DNA of 64,000 bases from Utricularia gibba (lineage: Eukaryota > Streptophyta > Magnoliopsida > Lamiales > Lentibulariaceae): positions 620,001 through 684,000 of the forward strand of contig NEEC01000020.1 of assembly GCA_002189035.1 (NCBI GenBank). The letters run 5' to 3'. Position numbers and translations under genes: made by a program. Position 1 is the first letter of the stretch; each line of letters begins with the position of its first letter. A model generated the notes under the pieces. The model was given only the letters and a program-made list of their open reading frames with translations, was not told the origin of the DNA and made no database searches. Below, piece by piece: positions 15,801 through 53,372 of the stretch.

Positions 15801-17976
15801 AAGGATTAGAGATATACGGGAGAAATAGGTAATCCTTGAAATATGGATTTATCTCATTTTTTCTTGTTGCTCTGAGTTCCAAATTAGAGCTCATTTGGTG
15901 GTCATATTGCACAGTTGCTTTATTGCTAGAAATTTGCTTCCTGGTCTTAAAACTTGCAAAGAAGTGTCCAGTTACATGTATGGTGATGCGCCATCAACAT
16001 CTTGTGGATCTTCAGCTCTTTCTCAGTCGTTTCTTGAAGATTGCAAAGAGTGCCATGTAGGGCATCTGGTTTGCATTTTATTCTTTTCCTTGGATAGAAA
16101 ACCGTACATTCTGTCCTGCACCACCAGGATATCATTTCCATTGTGTCCATTCTTTTATTTCAGGATCGAGATGCTCCTCCAAAGTCAAGAGTGTGCCGTA
16201 AACGGGGAAGGGTGCGGAAGGTTAAGTCCTCTTGGAAATCTGCTGGCCATCCTTCTCTATGGAGAAGGATAGCTGATGGAAAGGATTTGCCATGTAAACA
16301 TTATACTCCTTGTGGCTGCCAGCCCCTATGTGGAAAGGAATGCCCTTGTTTGCTAACTGGGACTTGCTGCGAAAAGTATTGCGGGTATTGATAAGTTTAC
16401 TTCTTTCTGAGCATCTTTTTGGTTTTAGATCCTGCCTTCCTGTCAACCATTGCTTTTAGATTAAGCATGAGAAAAAAAAAACAACTTTTGCATCTGTGGC
16501 CATTGATATAGGGCAACCTTTTACCTGTTCTGTCCAGGTGCTCAATAAACTGCAAAAATCGGTTTCGAGGGTGTCATTGTACAAAAAGCCAATGCAAAAG
16601 TCGGCTATGTCCATGTTTTGCTGCTGGTCGTGAATGCGATCCAGATGTTTGCCGGTATTGCTGGGTTAGGTACACAAGTTTTTTCCGCTATTCTATTCTG
16701 GATGTGCAGCATAATTTTTTTTGTTTCAAGTTTTCGCCCTTGCTATTCTGGAAATCACCAAATACTAATCTGTGCAGCTGTGGGGGTCATGAGTTAGGAG
16801 AACCCACAAGGCGAGGAGAAAATCAGTGTAGTAACATGAAACTCCTTCTGAGACAGCAGCAAAGGGTAAGAGATTCTTCAACTTCAATGCCATTACCCGA
16901 CACCTCAATGCATGTCGCTATTTTCTTTTCATCTAAATATCCTCATGTCATAGAACAGGAGAATCCAGAGCATGCCCATTTGTCTTTCTTTTGGGGTAAA
17001 GTAACCAGTGCAATGCATGCCTTTTTTATAGATCCTCTTGGCTAAGTCTGATGTTGCTGGTTGGGGAGCATTTCTTAAGGTATGCTTTAAGTTGTGATCT
17101 CCAGACTTTTGGGTACGAAAAATGTGTGATGAAGATGGATTCCTTTGCAGAACCCGGTTAACAAAAACGACTACCTCGGAGAATACACCGGTGAACTGAT
17201 CTCCCATCAGGAAGCAGACAAGCGTGGGAAGATTTATGATCGTGCAAATTCATCCTTCCTTTTTGATCTCAACGACAAGGCAAGACACTCTTATCTCCCA
17301 TCTCATGCATTCACCATATGATCTGTCCACACACCATATTTTTTCATGAAGCCATTGCACAGTCGTATAACATCGTAAGCATGTCGATTTACTATAGAGA
17401 TATCATCAGTTGAGTCCATCTTTTGGATCCATGCATTCTCCTCATCTTTAGCATTCCACTAATGTGCACACACCATATGTTTTCATGAAGCCATTTTACA
17501 GAGGTGCTCCATATCTGAATAGATAACATCCATCTTTTGGATCCATGCATTCTCCCCATCTGTCGCATTCCATTACTGTGCAAATATACTCTTGGTTCAC
17601 ACATTGTATTGCATTTTCAGTTTGTCCTCGATGCGTACCGCAAGGGAGACAAGTTGAAATTCGCAAACCATTCATCAACACCAAACTGTTATGCCAAGGT
17701 GCATACATTGTTGCACTTTCTCTAGATGTCAATAAGTTCTTCTCTATCATGATCCATGACCATGATCAGTGTTGTGAGCTTCAGGTGATGCTGGTTGTGG
17801 GTGACCACCGCGTTGGCATCTACGCAAACGAGCACATCGAAGCCGGTCAAGAGCTGTTCTACGACTACCGCTACGGACCGGACCAGGCACCCACATGGGC
17901 TCGAAAGCCTGAGAACTCAAAGAGGGATGGCTCATCAATACCACAAGGCCGAGCAAAGAAACACCAATCAGGTTAA
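12863..17976 (+). CDS. SWN: Enhancer-of-zeste H3K27 methyltransferase, SWINGER-like (PRC2 catalytic subunit)
   Basis: Nuclear Polycomb PRC2 methyltransferase. Nineteen coding exons, all phases consistent: 12863-12873, 13226-13322, 13402-13679, 13898-14059, 14261-14345, 14521-14676, 14813-14860, 14944-15015, 15118-15202, 15294-15480, 15670-15828, 15915-16056, 16164-16384, 16538-16669, 16778-16865, 17032-17079, 17151-17279, 17621-17698, 17785-17976; 789 residues. Landmarks: IPPYTTWMFLDRNQRMADDQ, RRRIYYDQHGSEALICSDSE, ALDSFDNLFCRRCLVFDC, a SANT-like region near 440-480 (YLKGLEIYGRNSCFIARNLL), the CXC cysteine block near 520-611, and the SET domain near 640-765 with GWGAFLKNPV, GEYTGELISH, KFANHSSTPNC and ELFYDYRYGPDQAP, so catalytic and cofactor motifs are intact. 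SWN rather than CLF is favoured by SAGHPSLWRRIA and the KKHQS end. The first coding exon is only 11 bases (MVAK|S); intron 17 uses a GC donor. Confidence 0.94.
17331..17580. repeat. Direct duplication inside SWN intron 17
   Basis: Two adjacent copies of a ~115-140 bp block. One copy includes ACACCATATTTTTTCATGA at 17331 and TCCATCTTTTGGATCCATGC at about 17415. The other has the matching ACACCATATGTTTTCATGA at about 17469 and the same TCCATCTTTTGGATCCATGC at about 17529. Both are followed by ATTCTCC and CGCATTCCA or AGCATTCCA. It lies wholly in the GC-AG intron between exons 17 and 18. Confidence 0.8.
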
Positions 17977-36902: not shown

Positions 36903-37309
36903 CTCTGGTTCTGTGACATCACACTGGTCCTCTGTCTCTGTTGCATCAACAAGCTTTCCTTTAAAACCCTGTAAGCCATCCTCCATCTTCAATGGACTTT
37001 ATTTCTGGATGGTTTGGACAAAAAAATTGGTTAGAGATCCACCGAAGTGGAAAGCCTTAACCGATATGCTCGTTAAGAGAAGGCAAGAATGCCGTTCCCG
37101 TCCCTGTCGGGGGAGATGCCAACCATCTCTCCTTTCTACGAACACGACCAAGATATCTATATCCTGTGTATATAAACCCACGATAAATTTTTTCAAAAAC
37201 CGATGTGGGACAAATGGTGAGCACGTTACCCAAAAACGTGTCACGCATGCAAACAATCACCGCGACTTCAACATACCGAAAAAGTTAAGGCAGCCTCAAC
37301 GTTGTGGAG
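36903..37309. other. Spacer between TMEM205-like gene and next ORF
   Basis: Holds the 3' UTR of the upstream gene and the leader of the next. Short frames here are overlaps without protein features. Confidence 0.45.
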
Positions 37310-43105: not shown

Positions 43106-44123
43106 GCTTGCTCCCTCCTTGAAAGTACGTGGGTTGTGAATTGTGATTCTTCCCGCGTCATGGTACTTATAAGAATAAATCAATTCATAATTGATTTTAA
43201 CATAATTTAAAATTCTAATAGAATGAGAACTAATAGATGTATAGACCGAAATCATAATTTATATTAAAAAATAGAAATTAATTCATCAATTTGTTAAACA
43301 TTACAATCTTTTGACATAATTTCCTCAATTTCTTATATAAAATTAATTATTTGAATTTAATATTTTAAAATTTTTAATTTTTTATAAAATTATTGAATCA
43401 AAGTGAAAAAAAATTATGCATCCAAATTAAAAATATTTCATCTCAGGTTCAATCATTCCCAAGTTTCGAAATGCTTGTTTATAGCCCAAACAAACAATTT
43501 TCAATACCAAAGTCACTCGCATCCAAACCCACAAAATTCATTTTTCTGATTTTCAATACAATCACCAATCGTTTTTCTTCTAAAGCTCACGATTTTGTAA
43601 GAGTAAAATTATTTTTTTGTACATTTTAGATACAATAATTTTTCATTAATTAATATAAGTTTTGTTTGACCAAATATTTAACTTTATTAAATCATATTTT
43701 AATTGTTGTTCTCGAGTATATTATATGTTCCATTTTTTTCTTTTTGTAATCAATCCTATGAACCAAGTGATCGCTAAGGTTCCACAGATAGATCGATAGA
43801 TGCCCCCAACTCCCTTTCTTAGGAATGGATACCAAAGGAGATAGATAATAGATACCTTTCTTAGGAGCAAGGAGAACCAAAGGGATCGCTTTTTCACTTT
43901 CTTCCCTTTCCCTTTTCCTTGAGGTTGATTCTCCCTGCGATTTTCGAAATAAAATATTCTCAATATTTATTCAAAATTTATATTTTTGGATCCAATCTAA
44001 AATCCGAAATTTTCCAGAATTCTATAAACATGAAGATATGCAGAAAGGGGCAGCAGAGATGATCGATCAGGATGGACAGACCTTGTAATGGCTGTCCTTA
44101 CCATTTCTTTCTCAGTTTGGGAT
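43106..44123. other. Intergenic, AT-rich
   Basis: 3' UTR of the asparaginase-type gene, then AT-rich sequence without exons. From about 44040 the sequence becomes GC-richer, leading into the MIR166-like hairpin. Confidence 0.5.
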
Positions 44124-44204
44124 CTGCTGCGGGAGCGTTGTCCGGCCCGAAACCTCATGCCCGCGCGAGGGTGGTTCCGGACCAGGCTTCGTTCCCCTCA
44201 GCAG
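44124..44204 (+). ncRNA. MIR166: MIR166-like microRNA precursor hairpin (diverged)
   Basis: The 3' arm at 44177-44197 matches miR166 at 19 of 21 positions (core GGACCAGGCTTC, end TTCCCC); it differs at position 1 (C for U) and position 15 (G for A). The 5' arm at about 44132-44152 matches the conserved miR166* (GGAGCGTTGTCCGGCCCGAA, against GGAATGTTGTCTGGCTCGAG). The arms pair through CTGCTG/CAGCAG at the base and most of the duplex, with a short loop near 44153-44171. miR166 normally targets class III HD-ZIP mRNAs. The hairpin sits in the 3' flank of the convergent SRA-SET gene. The changes could mark a decaying paralogue or a real variant. Confidence 0.75.
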
Positions 44205-44366: not shown

Positions 44367-45914
44367 CTAGTGGAGAGTGGGAGAGTAGTGGAACATACCG
44401 ATGTCGGATAATGGATGCGTTAGCTCATGCAAGGGAGGTATGTTTTTGGAGGCGAAGAGCATGATGTGCGGAATCGTCTTGTCGTAAACGACATGCCGAA
44501 CGGCCAGGTTGGGCCTGCTGCTTTGCCTGATAAACCTGGAAACGTTACCAAACTTGGATGAATCTACCCGGTAAGTCGTCGACTGCTCATTACAGCTCCC
44601 ACTGCTCATTCCTGCATCCTGGAAGGTGCTGTCCGGGGAAGGCGCTGGTTCGGGCTTGTCGAGTTGCTGCAGTTTTCCGACATATTCACATACAAAGCTT
44701 CCGGATGATATGAATCCCTTGGTTCTGACGCCCCATTCCCCAGAATCCGTCTTGAAAACCTCCAATCGGTAGCATAAACCACGTTGACTGGCTCTGTTCC
44801 CGCAAGAAGAGGGGCACTTGCAGTTTGGACCGCACTCGAACACAACCGGCAGTTCGCCATCAATCTTTCTAGCAATGCAGGGACAAGGGGTAGAAGTTGA
44901 ACAGCCACCCTTGCATCCACAACCTCCATGTTCTATTTCTGTGCACCATTCTGGATATGCAACGGTGCTTATGTAAGAGAATGCAGGCGGCGGTTCTGTA
45001 TCATATGCATTGAGAGCACGGATTGGCATGTTCTCTTCCCCTTCTGATAAGTCATCCACCACACAGCGCTCCGTGCCCATAAACTTGATGGATGGAATTT
45101 GCTGACCAAGTCTATTCAGCTGAAACCTGAAGATAAACTTGCCGGTGGAAGATTTTTCTTTCCAGAATCTAGCGATAATATATAAACCATCATACGAAAA
45201 TGGGGAAGCACTCGGTGATGGATTACTTGTTCTTCTGCTTATCACACGAATCGGATAACTGGCCTTCATGCTATTCGCCATAGCAAGATTACCAAGAACC
45301 AGTTTCTGATCTTCTTTCTCATCTCCATGGCCTGAGTATACCAAGACATTGTGGTCTCTTGATTCGTTGTAATAGCGACCAGAATTCACTATGCTTATAG
45401 CGTAACGTGTTCCCTCATGATCCATGTAATCTATACCAGACATGTGGGAACAGTGCAAACCCACAACCATGAGCTCAGCTCTGAGATGGAATGTATCACC
45501 AACTTTCACCCCAGGGACATGACCAAATCGTTTCTCCGTATTGATCCACAGCCCTTTCTTCTTCATGTCATATGCCACGCTCATATCAACTCTAGGGCTT
45601 TCTGGATCTTCTATTTTCTTTGATCTGAACATTTGCCTAAATATCTTCAAAGTTTCCTGGACTTTTGAGCTGTCCAACTGAGCTACGTCAATGACACTCT
45701 CACTCAAGGTATCAGTTTTTGGGCGCTTGTGAGAAATGAGCTCCATTTCCTCAGAAATGCTAATACCATCGCACGCTCGCTTATTACCCAAACGAAATTC
45801 TGCTTCAAAATTGTTATTCATCGCCTTCGAGTTCTTGGATTCACTGACATGATTTCTGGGGAAATATATCATCACTACTGTAGCTTCTTCCTGCATCATA
45901 CAAATCAATTGCAT
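44367..45914 (-). CDS. SRA-SET protein of the SUVH family with a degenerate, truncated SET domain
   Basis: SUVH proteins bind methylated DNA through the SRA domain and methylate H3K9 through SET. This intronless frame encodes 515 residues. SRA spans about 128-285 (HVPGVKVGDTFHLRAELMVV, SGIDYMDHEGTRYAISIVNS, EDQKLVLGNLAMANSMKASY). Pre-SET lies near 325-385 with its Cys cluster (GGCGCKGGCSTSTPCPC, FECGPNCKCPSSCGNR). SET begins normally (GEWGVRTKGFISSGSFVCEY) but lacks the GNDEYLFDIG-type segment. It reads FIRQSSRPNLAV where active enzymes have FINHSCSPNL, and stops after HELTHPLSDIG without post-SET cysteines. The N-terminal extension of SUVH5/6 is also missing. It is probably catalytically dead but could bind DNA. 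A 5'-UTR exon near 46192-46430 with a GTGAGT donor, and an acceptor just before the ATG (CCATTAG at 45915), suggest a real transcription unit. Confidence 0.82.
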   Translation of the reverse strand: MQLICMMQEEATVVMIYFPRNHVSESKNSKAMNNNFEAEFRLGNKRACDGISISEEMELISHKRPKTDTLSESVIDVAQLDSSKVQETLKIFRQMFRSKKIEDPESPRVDMSVAYDMKKKGLWINTEKRFGHVPGVKVGDTFHLRAELMVVGLHCSHMSGIDYMDHEGTRYAISIVNSGRYYNESRDHNVLVYSGHGDEKEDQKLVLGNLAMANSMKASYPIRVISRRTSNPSPSASPFSYDGLYIIARFWKEKSSTGKFIFRFQLNRLGQQIPSIKFMGTERCVVDDLSEGEENMPIRALNAYDTEPPPAFSYISTVAYPEWCTEIEHGGCGCKGGCSTSTPCPCIARKIDGELPVVFECGPNCKCPSSCGNRASQRGLCYRLEVFKTDSGEWGVRTKGFISSGSFVCEYVGKLQQLDKPEPAPSPDSTFQDAGMSSGSCNEQSTTYRVDSSKFGNVSRFIRQSSRPNLAVRHVVYDKTIPHIMLFASKNIPPLHELTHPLSDIGMFHYSPTLH

Positions 45915-46450
45915 CTAATGGAGAACTAGCAATGGAAATGAAAGCTAGCGAAACACAATTAATCATAAAGTACGGACAATTAACGTTACCACGAACGCCA
46001 AAATGCAGTGAAAAACAGTAAAATCACTAAAAAAATCTCAGACGAAACCGGATCACCGACAAGAAGCGTGAAATGCGCCCAAATGTAGCGAAAAACAGCG
46101 AAGCGACTCGAGAATCCCGATAAAACCGCTTTAAACCATTAAACATGCACAGCATCAGCAAAAAAATGCAGAAGAAAGAACAAACTCACTGGAAACCCTA
46201 CGATGAAACTGCCGTCTGACGACACGCGTGAAGTGAACTCCAAAATGCCGCCGGAAACACGAAAACCCTCGAAGATGGAAGCAGAAAAGGAGTAGAGAAG
46301 CGCGAGCAAGCTCGGGAGAAATTACTGCAGAAAACCGGTGGCGGAGAAGCGCCGGCAGACGGAAGAAATGGCGGTTCGCAGACACCGATCCCTTGGAAAA
46401 CCCAAACGCTTGATCTTCCTCTTTGAAAATTCAAATATTGTAAACCGTGC
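45915..46450 (-). promoter_or_regulatory. 5' leader and promoter of the SRA-SET gene
   Basis: A GC-rich segment at about 46192-46430 reads as a 5'-UTR exon ending TTTCCA|GTGAGT. The following ~270 bases are AT-rich and end CTCCATTAG at the ATG, consistent with a leader intron. Confidence 0.5.
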
Positions 46451-48014
46451 AACCGCTGTTTAGAGTGCTCTGTACGAATGAGCTATAAACATTTCTTTAA
46501 AAATATTTAATAAATATTATTCAAATTACTTTAATAAGGTATATTTATTTTTTAATTATTAATTATCACAGCAGCTTAAAAATATTTAATTGATCAAATT
46601 ATTGCAGGATCTTGTCCCAAGTAAATTAGCAAAATATTCCAACTTTAAAAATTAATTTTCAAAAAACCTCAAATTGTTATTTTTCTTACAGATACCTTAC
46701 TTTCAATAATAATTTACAAAATATCTCATTTTTTTAATTTAATTTGTAAAATACCTTATCTGTTTTTCAAGATATCCTAATTCTTTTTATTTTTCTGTAC
46801 AAAATACTTTAATTAACATAACGCTCTAATTTTTAAAATAAATTAGGATAAATTACTAACCACATTAATTAGGTATTTTGCCACTCTATTGATCAATTAG
46901 GTTAACAAAAAAAGAAAATTAAGGCATTTTTCCAATAAGAACAACTAATTTCTACTCTTTCTAAACCAATTTATAATTGTTTTGGAATTATTTAATTGAA
47001 TTGATTAATATTTAAAGTGCAAAAAAATGATAAATAAATTTTATAATAAATGAAACATACATCATATTCATGTATGAAAAAAGGCATAATTATAATTATT
47101 TATAAAAAATATTTACAAGGTAAACTTATATCTTATAATTTTTTAATACTGCAATAGATAGTGTTAATTTTTTTTGTAAAAATTGTAATAAAGAATAATT
47201 GAATATAAAAAATGATGAATTAAAAAAGATAATTGAATATATAAGATAATATTATCATCTTAATCTAATCTTTTTAATATTAATTTTTTTGAATTAAAAT
47301 GTAAAAAATGGTGAAGAATTAGATGGAATAAAAAATAGATAATGGCTTCTTTTCACAATAACATTCTAGAATTGATTTTAATAAAATTAAAAACAATGAT
47401 AAAATAAAAATTGATATATATTTGTAAATAATTTTTCAGAAAAATTATTACAGAATAAATTTATATTTGAAATGTAAAAATGGTAATTGATTTTAATAAT
47501 TAAATTTTAAATTTTAAAATTATGTTATATATTATTTATATTATAAAAATATAATATGTTTTTGAATTATAATTTATGCTATTAGTTTAATAAAAAATAT
47601 GTATAACTGTAATTTGAATATTACAAATATTTATCAAAAATCAATTTTCATAGATAAGTCACTATGTCTTGGTTTTCATATAATTAAAATGATTTTTAAA
47701 AATGAATTATTGTAAAATAAAATTTGAAATATGTTTGAAATATAGAAATAATTATATATGAATTGAATATGAAATGGAGAACATTATTATCGAAAAAAAT
47801 TGACAAAATTTTTAATGATTGCGTTAGTAAAATAATGGTATCAAATTTATTGATTGTAAATCATTGCAATTTTTATTTAAAAAAATTGACCCGAAAAGGT
47901 GCATCAATCAGCTGCTTCGGGTGCACCATTATCAAACGCAACGCGTACAGGTGCAGCAGCAGGAGTAGCGGTGGCGACTCGATAGGCTGAACCGTGACCC
48001 AACAGCTTGAAGCC
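46451..48014. other. AT-rich intergenic region, no gene seen
   Basis: About 1.6 kb of AT-rich, low-complexity sequence with no exon recognised until the bZIP leader near 47900. Confidence 0.55.
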
Positions 48015-51444: not shown

Positions 51445-51930
51445 CTACATAGCTATTTGAAACTTTTCTTTTTTTGAACTCAAGGCAGTTTCCCAAAATA
51501 AATTAACTAAATGTTTTGACCTGAAATGATATATGAAATTTGGAAATAGATGTTGCATACAAAATCTGTAATCTACTGTAGGCTCATTGAAAGCAGGTAT
51601 AGCCTTAATCGCAGATAATAATCCTGCACCACGATCAGTTACTAGACAAATACGACGTCCTTTCACGATATGCTTAACCAAAAGGTTAAAAAACCAACAA
51701 CATGATTCATAAGATTCTTCCTCAACAATAGCAAATGCAAGTGGAATTATAGTGTGGTCACCATCAATTGTGCATGCTATTAGAAGGTGATATCTATATC
51801 CTGCATATAGATGTGTTTCATCAACAATAATAACCGGACGACAATACCTAAAAGCATGGACGCATGATCCAAAAGCCCAAAATATATGGTGTAGCATTTG
51901 CTTGCCATCATGAGAACGAAGATTCTCATA
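51445..51930 (-). pseudogene. MULE transposase core fragment
   Basis: The longest open part of the transposase. It encodes GKQMLHHIFWAFGSCVHAF, then the first Asp motif IVDETHLYAGY, the second in CLVTDRGAGLLSAI, and the typical YRFCMQHLFPNFIYHFRSKH segment. It ends at a stop after KEKFQIAM at 51445, upstream of where the SWIM zinc finger would follow. It is part of the decayed element at 50640-53815. Confidence 0.85.
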
Positions 51931-53372
51931 TTCAAATATAGTATCTGTGATAAAATAAATATGTTAGTAAACAAATATCAATATTTGTAAAATAATAAAA
52001 ATGAATTACCTGGGTTAGATTCCTTAATAGATAACAAATAAGAATGAAGCTTTGTCACCGATTCTTCCCAAGTACCATACATATGCATCATAGCACGCCT
52101 AATAACAGTCCATCCAAGCTTATATGATATCTTGAAATGATAAATTTCATCAATATCATCAATAACATCAGAAACACAAATCCTTGAATTCGCTTTAACC
52201 TTGTTCATGATATGAAGAGACACAAATTTACTAGTAATGCTATCATTTCTAGCAGTTCTGGAACTGCTAGAAAAGCAAGTATGAGGCCCCTCGTATTGTG
52301 TCACAGTCCAAAACTGAGTGATACTGCTATTCCATACCTTTACACACCATTTATTGCATTTCGGTTGATATAATTTATTTCATACTACTTGTTGTTGGTC
52401 TTCTCAACATGAAAAGGTCTTTTTCAGCTTCGTGATACAATAATAATTCAATGCTTCCTTTATTGAAGTTTTATCTTTAAAGAAAACCTCCTTGCATGGA
52501 TCACCGCTTGTCCCATCAAAGAAGTTTAAAATCTTCTAAAATTCAATTGCTGTTGGAATTTCCATTGACACATCGTTTTCATAAAACCTGTCTTCTATTT
52601 GTTCATCATCATCATCACTTGAAGAAAGTGGAGATGGAATTACTTCTTGCATCATTTCGTTTTTAGCTTGCTCAATAGCATTTTCCTCACATAAATGATC
52701 CAAATCCCATAATATATCTTCATCACAAGGTGATTCTGGTGATGAAGAATTGTGATATGTTGATGAAGTGCATGGATTATTATGAATAGTTGATATTTCT
52801 CCAACACTAATTAGAAATAAAACATAAAATATATCATTAACACAATTTAATCATATGAATTCAAAAAAATATCCTAAATGTAATTTAAAACTAATAATAA
52901 TAAATGTTATTTGAAAAAAAAAATACATACCAGTGTGTTGTTGAATGATCAAATTCATGAAGTTTGGAGTTGCACTAATATACATATCAACACTTGAAAC
53001 CATACGACTTTGATTAAAAATCAAAGACAAACTATCATCCGTTTGATCAAGAGGATGGCAGTATCTCTTAAAACCCATTGTTGAATCCATAGCAACATAA
53101 TTCACAATGATGGTAATAGAATACTCAGTTGAAGATAGTTGCATAACTTCATAAATCAATGACTATAGCATGAATATTGAGGTATCTTGAGCAACCCAAG
53201 CAGAAAATCATGGTGGTGAATCATACCACATACTAGTGTTTCCATAAAACAAGTTATCTCTCTAGTACAATCGGATCTCAATTGGAGAGGAAGCCATTGA
53301 AATTGTAAGAGGAAGAAAAGGGGAAAGAATGATGATATGAAATGTGTGTTTCATTATATACTTCATTTTTTC

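Follow-up and report, generated by a model that had tools for sequence, protein, structure and literature searches.

The window, a 64,000-nucleotide stretch of plant DNA (G000:C317:620001-684000), carries a SUVH-like gene that retains the SRA and pre-SET domains of its family, with a complete zinc-binding cluster and signs of constraint, and has lost each catalytic motif of its SET domain. Its closest relative is a paralogue with an intact SET domain. SUVH proteins normally read DNA methylation and write a histone mark. On balance, the gene probably encodes a catalytically dead SUVH, derived from a divergent SUVH5/6-side paralogue and acting as a non-enzymatic chromatin protein. Judged by its sequence relationships, it most likely reached the enzyme-dead state by a second route, beside that of the known SUVH2 and SUVH9.

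Domain architecture and gene structure

A 515-codon open reading frame occupies 44367..45914 (-), with its stop at 44367, as an earlier reading of the sequence alone (the sequence-only reading) had described. The domains found in it are as follows.

45099..45530 (-), SRA (SAD) domain, residues 129-272 of the 515-residue frame (Pfam PF02182 SAD_SRA, 144 bits)
44793..45047 (-), pre-SET domain, residues 290-374 (Pfam PF05033, 49.9 bits)
44418..44735 (-), degenerate SET domain, residues 394-499 (Pfam PF00856, 50.4 bits; cut-off 22.4)

All three matches are above their Pfam cut-offs. The arrangement, with an SRA domain N-terminal to a nine-cysteine pre-SET and a SET domain still recognisable by its profile, is that of the SUVH family, and the best match among solved structures is Arabidopsis SUVH6 (6a5k, E 1.9e-79). 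Each of the nine zinc-binding cysteines of the pre-SET is present, and the loop between Cys5 and Cys6 is shortened. A single-sequence AlphaFold model was unusable (mean pLDDT 30).

The 5' end of the frame probably lies within an intron of a spliced leader.

46190..46480 (-), putative 5' non-coding exon without ATG, 3' end ..GGTTTCCA/GTGAGTTTG (splice-site reading and ATG count)
45891..46189 (-), putative 5'UTR intron, 299 nt, GTGAGT...GATGCAG (splice-site reading)
44367..45872 (-), probable coding sequence, beginning at the first AUG after splicing and ending with the stop, ~501 aa

The predicted intron is bordered by the donor TTTCCA/GTGAGTTT and the acceptor GATGCAG/GAAGAAG, and it takes in the first 8 codons of the 515-codon frame. 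Exon 1 (291 nt) contains no AUG, a property of 2% of shuffled versions, and the earliest AUG after splicing, codon 15 (45872), is in frame. Counted from this codon, the protein is likely to be ~501 aa long. The leader proposed in the sequence-only reading is plausible, and the start of the 515-residue frame given there needs correction, since its first codons would be intronic.

A diverged MIR166-like hairpin lies at 44126-44202 (+) of the window, convergent with the SUVH-like gene and ~165 bp beyond its stop. The transcripts of the two may overlap in antisense orientation. The hairpin scores 36 bits, short of the gathering score of 60. In its guide, CCGGACCAGGCUUCGUUCCCC, CATTCCC carries an A-to-G change, which is paired with a T-to-C change in the star arm. 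Exact MIR166 sequences occur 11 times elsewhere in the genome.

Loss of the catalytic motifs of the SET domain

The GWG, NHSC and YDY-type motifs are tied to AdoMet binding and catalysis in SET enzymes. Their counterparts in the SUVH-like gene, identified by alignment, are listed below.

44730..44738 (-), EWG replacing the AdoMet-binding GWG, residues 393-395
44616..44633 (-), DSTFQD replacing DEYLFD, residues 428-433, aligned in register
44508..44534 (-), FIRQSSRPN replacing FINHSCSPN, residues 461-469
44409..44426 (-), ELTHPL replacing ELTYDY, residues 497-502, both tyrosines gone

After ELTHPL the protein finishes in an unrelated 13-residue tail, followed by the stop, and there is no post-SET. 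A three-frame reading downstream contained no post-SET cysteine cluster, and tblastn searches with the SET/post-SET tails of three paralogues revealed neither a lost post-SET nor a hidden DEYLF in nearby frames. The new C-terminus and 3' flank have no copies elsewhere in the genome except for a 38-bp match at ~43941-43978. Of the four features that mark an active SUVH4/5/6-type H3K9 methyltransferase (GWG, NHSC, YDY and the post-SET CxCx4C), none is present. Because the motifs for AdoMet binding and catalysis are gone, methyltransferase activity has presumably been lost, and the protein most likely cannot methylate H3K9.

These results bear out the central claim of the sequence-only reading, namely that SRA and pre-SET are kept and the SET active site is lost, together with its observations that FINHSCSPNL has become FIRQSSRPNL and that the post-SET cysteines are missing. 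The change of GWG to EWG and the loss of both ELTYDY tyrosines are losses beyond those it reported. Its statement that the central SET segment is missing was mistaken: the stretch is present in register, diverged to DSTFQD, and the Pfam match spans positions 2-101 of the 105 in the SET profile.

Kinship with an intact SUVH5/6-side paralogue

Searches of the 100.09-Mb, 516-contig plant assembly that includes the window revealed SUVH5/6 types (L003 and L004), SUVH2/9 types (L006-L008), SUVH1/3 types (L005 and a broken copy, L009), SUVH4-like exons and a further locus, L002 (G000:C1:7552590-7553852). The last of these has a 746-aa frame with a complete SET domain (88 bits, 1-105/105) and a post-SET. 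In a tree whose Arabidopsis members were taken from solved-structure sequences, the SUVH-like gene and L002 are sisters (support 98/96; 46% identity), and the pair joins the SUVH5/6 types (94/95). SUVH2/9 form a separate clade at 100/100 that excludes the SUVH-like gene. Since the closest relative is intact, the loss of SET catalysis appears to be separate from that in SUVH2/9, which supports an independent loss from a SUVH5/6-side ancestor, as the sequence-only reading had suggested.

In the tree of SRA domains, Arabidopsis SUVH5, SUVH6 and L003/L004 form a clade to which the pair is sister. A topology uniting the pair with L003/L004 alone, as a purely local origin would predict, was not rejected (p-AU 0.097), and the branch is long; under both placements the SET loss is distinct from that of SUVH2/9. 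The SUVH-like gene has evolved fast, with a branch length of 1.25 versus 0.50 for its sister. A shared neighbourhood, which would hint at a whole-genome duplicate, was looked for and not found: the two genes have no common neighbours within ~15 kb.

L002 itself is active-looking, yet it has Asn at the position of the base-reading Asp of the SRA domain, and its SET insert is very short. The broken SUVH1/3-type copy (L009/L011, G000:C1:1486417-1487453) has a frame interrupted within the pre-SET, which makes it either a pseudogene or an assembly error.

Apparent constraint on the SRA and pre-SET domains

Residues identical in six active-type SUVHs were taken as invariant. The SUVH-like gene keeps 35 of 41 in SRA and 23 of 24 in pre-SET, compared with 21 of 33 in SET, where 12 are lost. 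The difference between SRA plus pre-SET (58/65) and SET (21/33) is significant (Fisher p 0.0055). Counts of unique replacements showed no difference between SRA plus pre-SET and the SET core (Fisher p 1.0).

A branch codon model gave a dN/dS ratio (w) of 0.078 for SRA and 0.107 for the link plus pre-SET, with w=1 rejected in both (2dlnL 7.0 and 9.5, respectively), and 0.74 for SET, where w=1 was not rejected (2dlnL 0.1); these values derive from paralogue data with a saturated branch dS (~3), and the branch also covers time before the SET loss. The excess of branch w over background in the SET core was reached in none of 80 null simulations (parametric bootstrap). The contrast between domains is marginal, with equal w across the parts weakly disfavoured (2dlnL 4.6, 2 df). 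The SRA and pre-SET values answer the selection check proposed in the sequence-only reading and speak for that reading, as far as saturated data from paralogues allow.

When the decay of SET is used as a clock, the period of relaxed constraint corresponds to 0.20 substitutions per site (0.10-0.35). The open frame would survive that much drift by chance with a probability of ~1e-5, or 3e-3 at the low end. Because such survival is improbable, the rest of the gene was probably under selection for most of the time during which SET decayed, and an old pseudogene is disfavoured.

The base-recognition pocket of the SRA domain

In the SRA domain of SUVH5, the flipped base is held between Tyr416 and Tyr428, and its Watson-Crick edge is read by Asp418 (PMC4740795). 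SRA alignment locates the equivalent of the latter residue in the SUVH-like gene.

45366..45368 (-), Asn183 codon, equivalent of SUVH5 Asp418 (flipped-base recognition)

The stacking pair is kept as Tyr181 and Tyr193. The position of Asp418 is Asn in both the SUVH-like protein and L002; the remaining 11 SRA sequences in the comparison, those of SUVH4/5/6/9 among them, have Asp. If Asn183 goes back to the ancestor shared with L002, it would be older than the SET loss. The adjoining residue, Glu184, is at the spacing of UHRF2 Glu498 (Phe495+3; PMC4740795).

The change from Asp to Asn may weaken or alter the reading of modified bases, and could shift base preference without abolishing binding; for the N217D variant in PMC4157451 the ratio given is 32:1:1. 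Since the Asp418 equivalent is Asn in both paralogues, reading of 5-methylcytosine is unproven, and the methyl-DNA reader role put forward in the sequence-only reading is a hypothesis, to be treated as a question and not as a result.

Proposed function and alternative explanations

Arabidopsis SUVH2 and SUVH9 are the established precedent. Neither activity nor AdoMet binding was detected for these proteins (PMC2582956), which bind modified DNA and recruit Pol V via DMS3 (PMC2582956, PMC7617993). The SUVH-like gene resembles them in combining SRA, pre-SET and a SET domain without NHSC and without a post-SET, and it has also lost several of the 10 SET invariants (of 33) that none of the four SUVH2/9 sequences retains. 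However, SUVH2/9 retain two residues that it has lost, the His of NHSC and the initial Gly of GWG (GWG is present in three of the four), and in the tree it pairs with a SUVH5/6-side paralogue whose SET is intact. It is similar to SUVH5 and SUVH6 in its best structural match and tree grouping, but differs from them in the absence of catalytic motifs and post-SET, in Asn for Asp418, and in belonging to a pair outside their clade. With L002 it shares the same Asn in the SRA pocket, although L002 has complete SET and post-SET regions and no neighbours in common with it within ~15 kb.

We propose that a divergent SUVH5/6-side paralogue gave rise to a SUVH-like gene in which SET catalysis was lost and the SRA/pre-SET body retained, with a SET-like scaffold remaining. 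Its protein would act non-enzymatically, through SRA and the pre-SET/SET surface. It might bring partners to modified DNA, as SUVH2/9 do with Pol V through DMS3. An equally simple alternative is that it occupies the sites and partners of active SUVH5/6-type enzymes. In this scheme we infer transcription and translation of the gene and, for its product, DNA binding, partners and a loss of activity. Because the genome also has three genes of the SUVH2/9 type, the SUVH-like gene would be an addition to them and not a replacement.

One variant of this proposal, possible but doubtful, is that the usual reading of 5-methylcytosine has gone, base recognition by the pocket having been re-tuned or lost before SET died, and that contacts with other proteins, or competition with L002, account for what the protein does. 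The Asn shared by both paralogues at a position otherwise occupied by Asp would fit this explanation, whereas retention of both stacking tyrosines and the placement of Glu184 speak against it. A recent pseudogene, in which function was lost shortly before the present and the open frame is a remnant, is an unlikely explanation. The fast branch, the many lost SET residues and the unrelated C-terminal sequence are consistent with it, the degenerate Arabidopsis SUVH7 and SUVH10 are probable pseudogenes (PMC8701781), and the same genome holds the broken SUVH1/3-type copy. Conversely, 501 codons are open behind an intact splice leader, the zinc cysteines and most SRA and pre-SET invariants are retained, and the frame would be expected to survive with a probability of only ~1e-5 to 3e-3 if drift were as old as the SET decay; compatible drift is limited to < ~0.05 substitutions per site. 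It is very improbable that sequencing errors or a missed intron conceal an ordinary active SET and post-SET. Insertion errors can break frames in long-read assemblies, but the changes here are substitutions in an uninterrupted frame, and neither the tblastn searches with paralogue tails nor the three-frame reading recovered DEYLF or a cysteine cluster.

A bolder form of the catalytically dead SUVH proposal, which we regard as speculative and rather unlikely, is that the gene defines a second, independently arisen class of enzyme-dead SUVH readers, whose SRA pocket, re-tuned by Asn for Asp, came from an active paralogue, and that it works in a plant with reduced RNA-directed DNA methylation machinery. 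Published work on the bladderwort Utricularia gibba, the probable source of the DNA, describes a truncated DCL3 and a low level of cytosine methylation, and SUVH is absent from the main text of that paper (PMC8333044). The genome searched here contains only three Dicer-dimer domains, which fits a U. gibba DCL3 without that region (PMC8333044). Literature on SUVH copies whose SET is defective yielded nothing for the lineage of the SUVH-like gene; one survey drops sequences without SET, and others note truncated SET domains. SUVH2/9 are the known case in which a histone methyltransferase family gave rise to a reader that has no enzymatic role and directs Pol V. Another, independent case would indicate that the body formed by SRA and pre-SET has a use even when the enzyme is gone and, if the plant is U. 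gibba, would bear on how it manages methylation.

Other features in the window

At ~17172-17886 (+) of the window, tblastn detected exons resembling those of a SET gene (FLFDLN, KFANHSSTPNCYAK and ELFYDYRYGPDQ), which we take to be of the E(z) type; scanning a single short exon frame from this region against Pfam gave no match. The window also contains a gene for the U6atac minor spliceosomal RNA at 37018-37145 (-) (86.9 bits) and a fragment of a MULE transposase domain at 51445-51963 (-).
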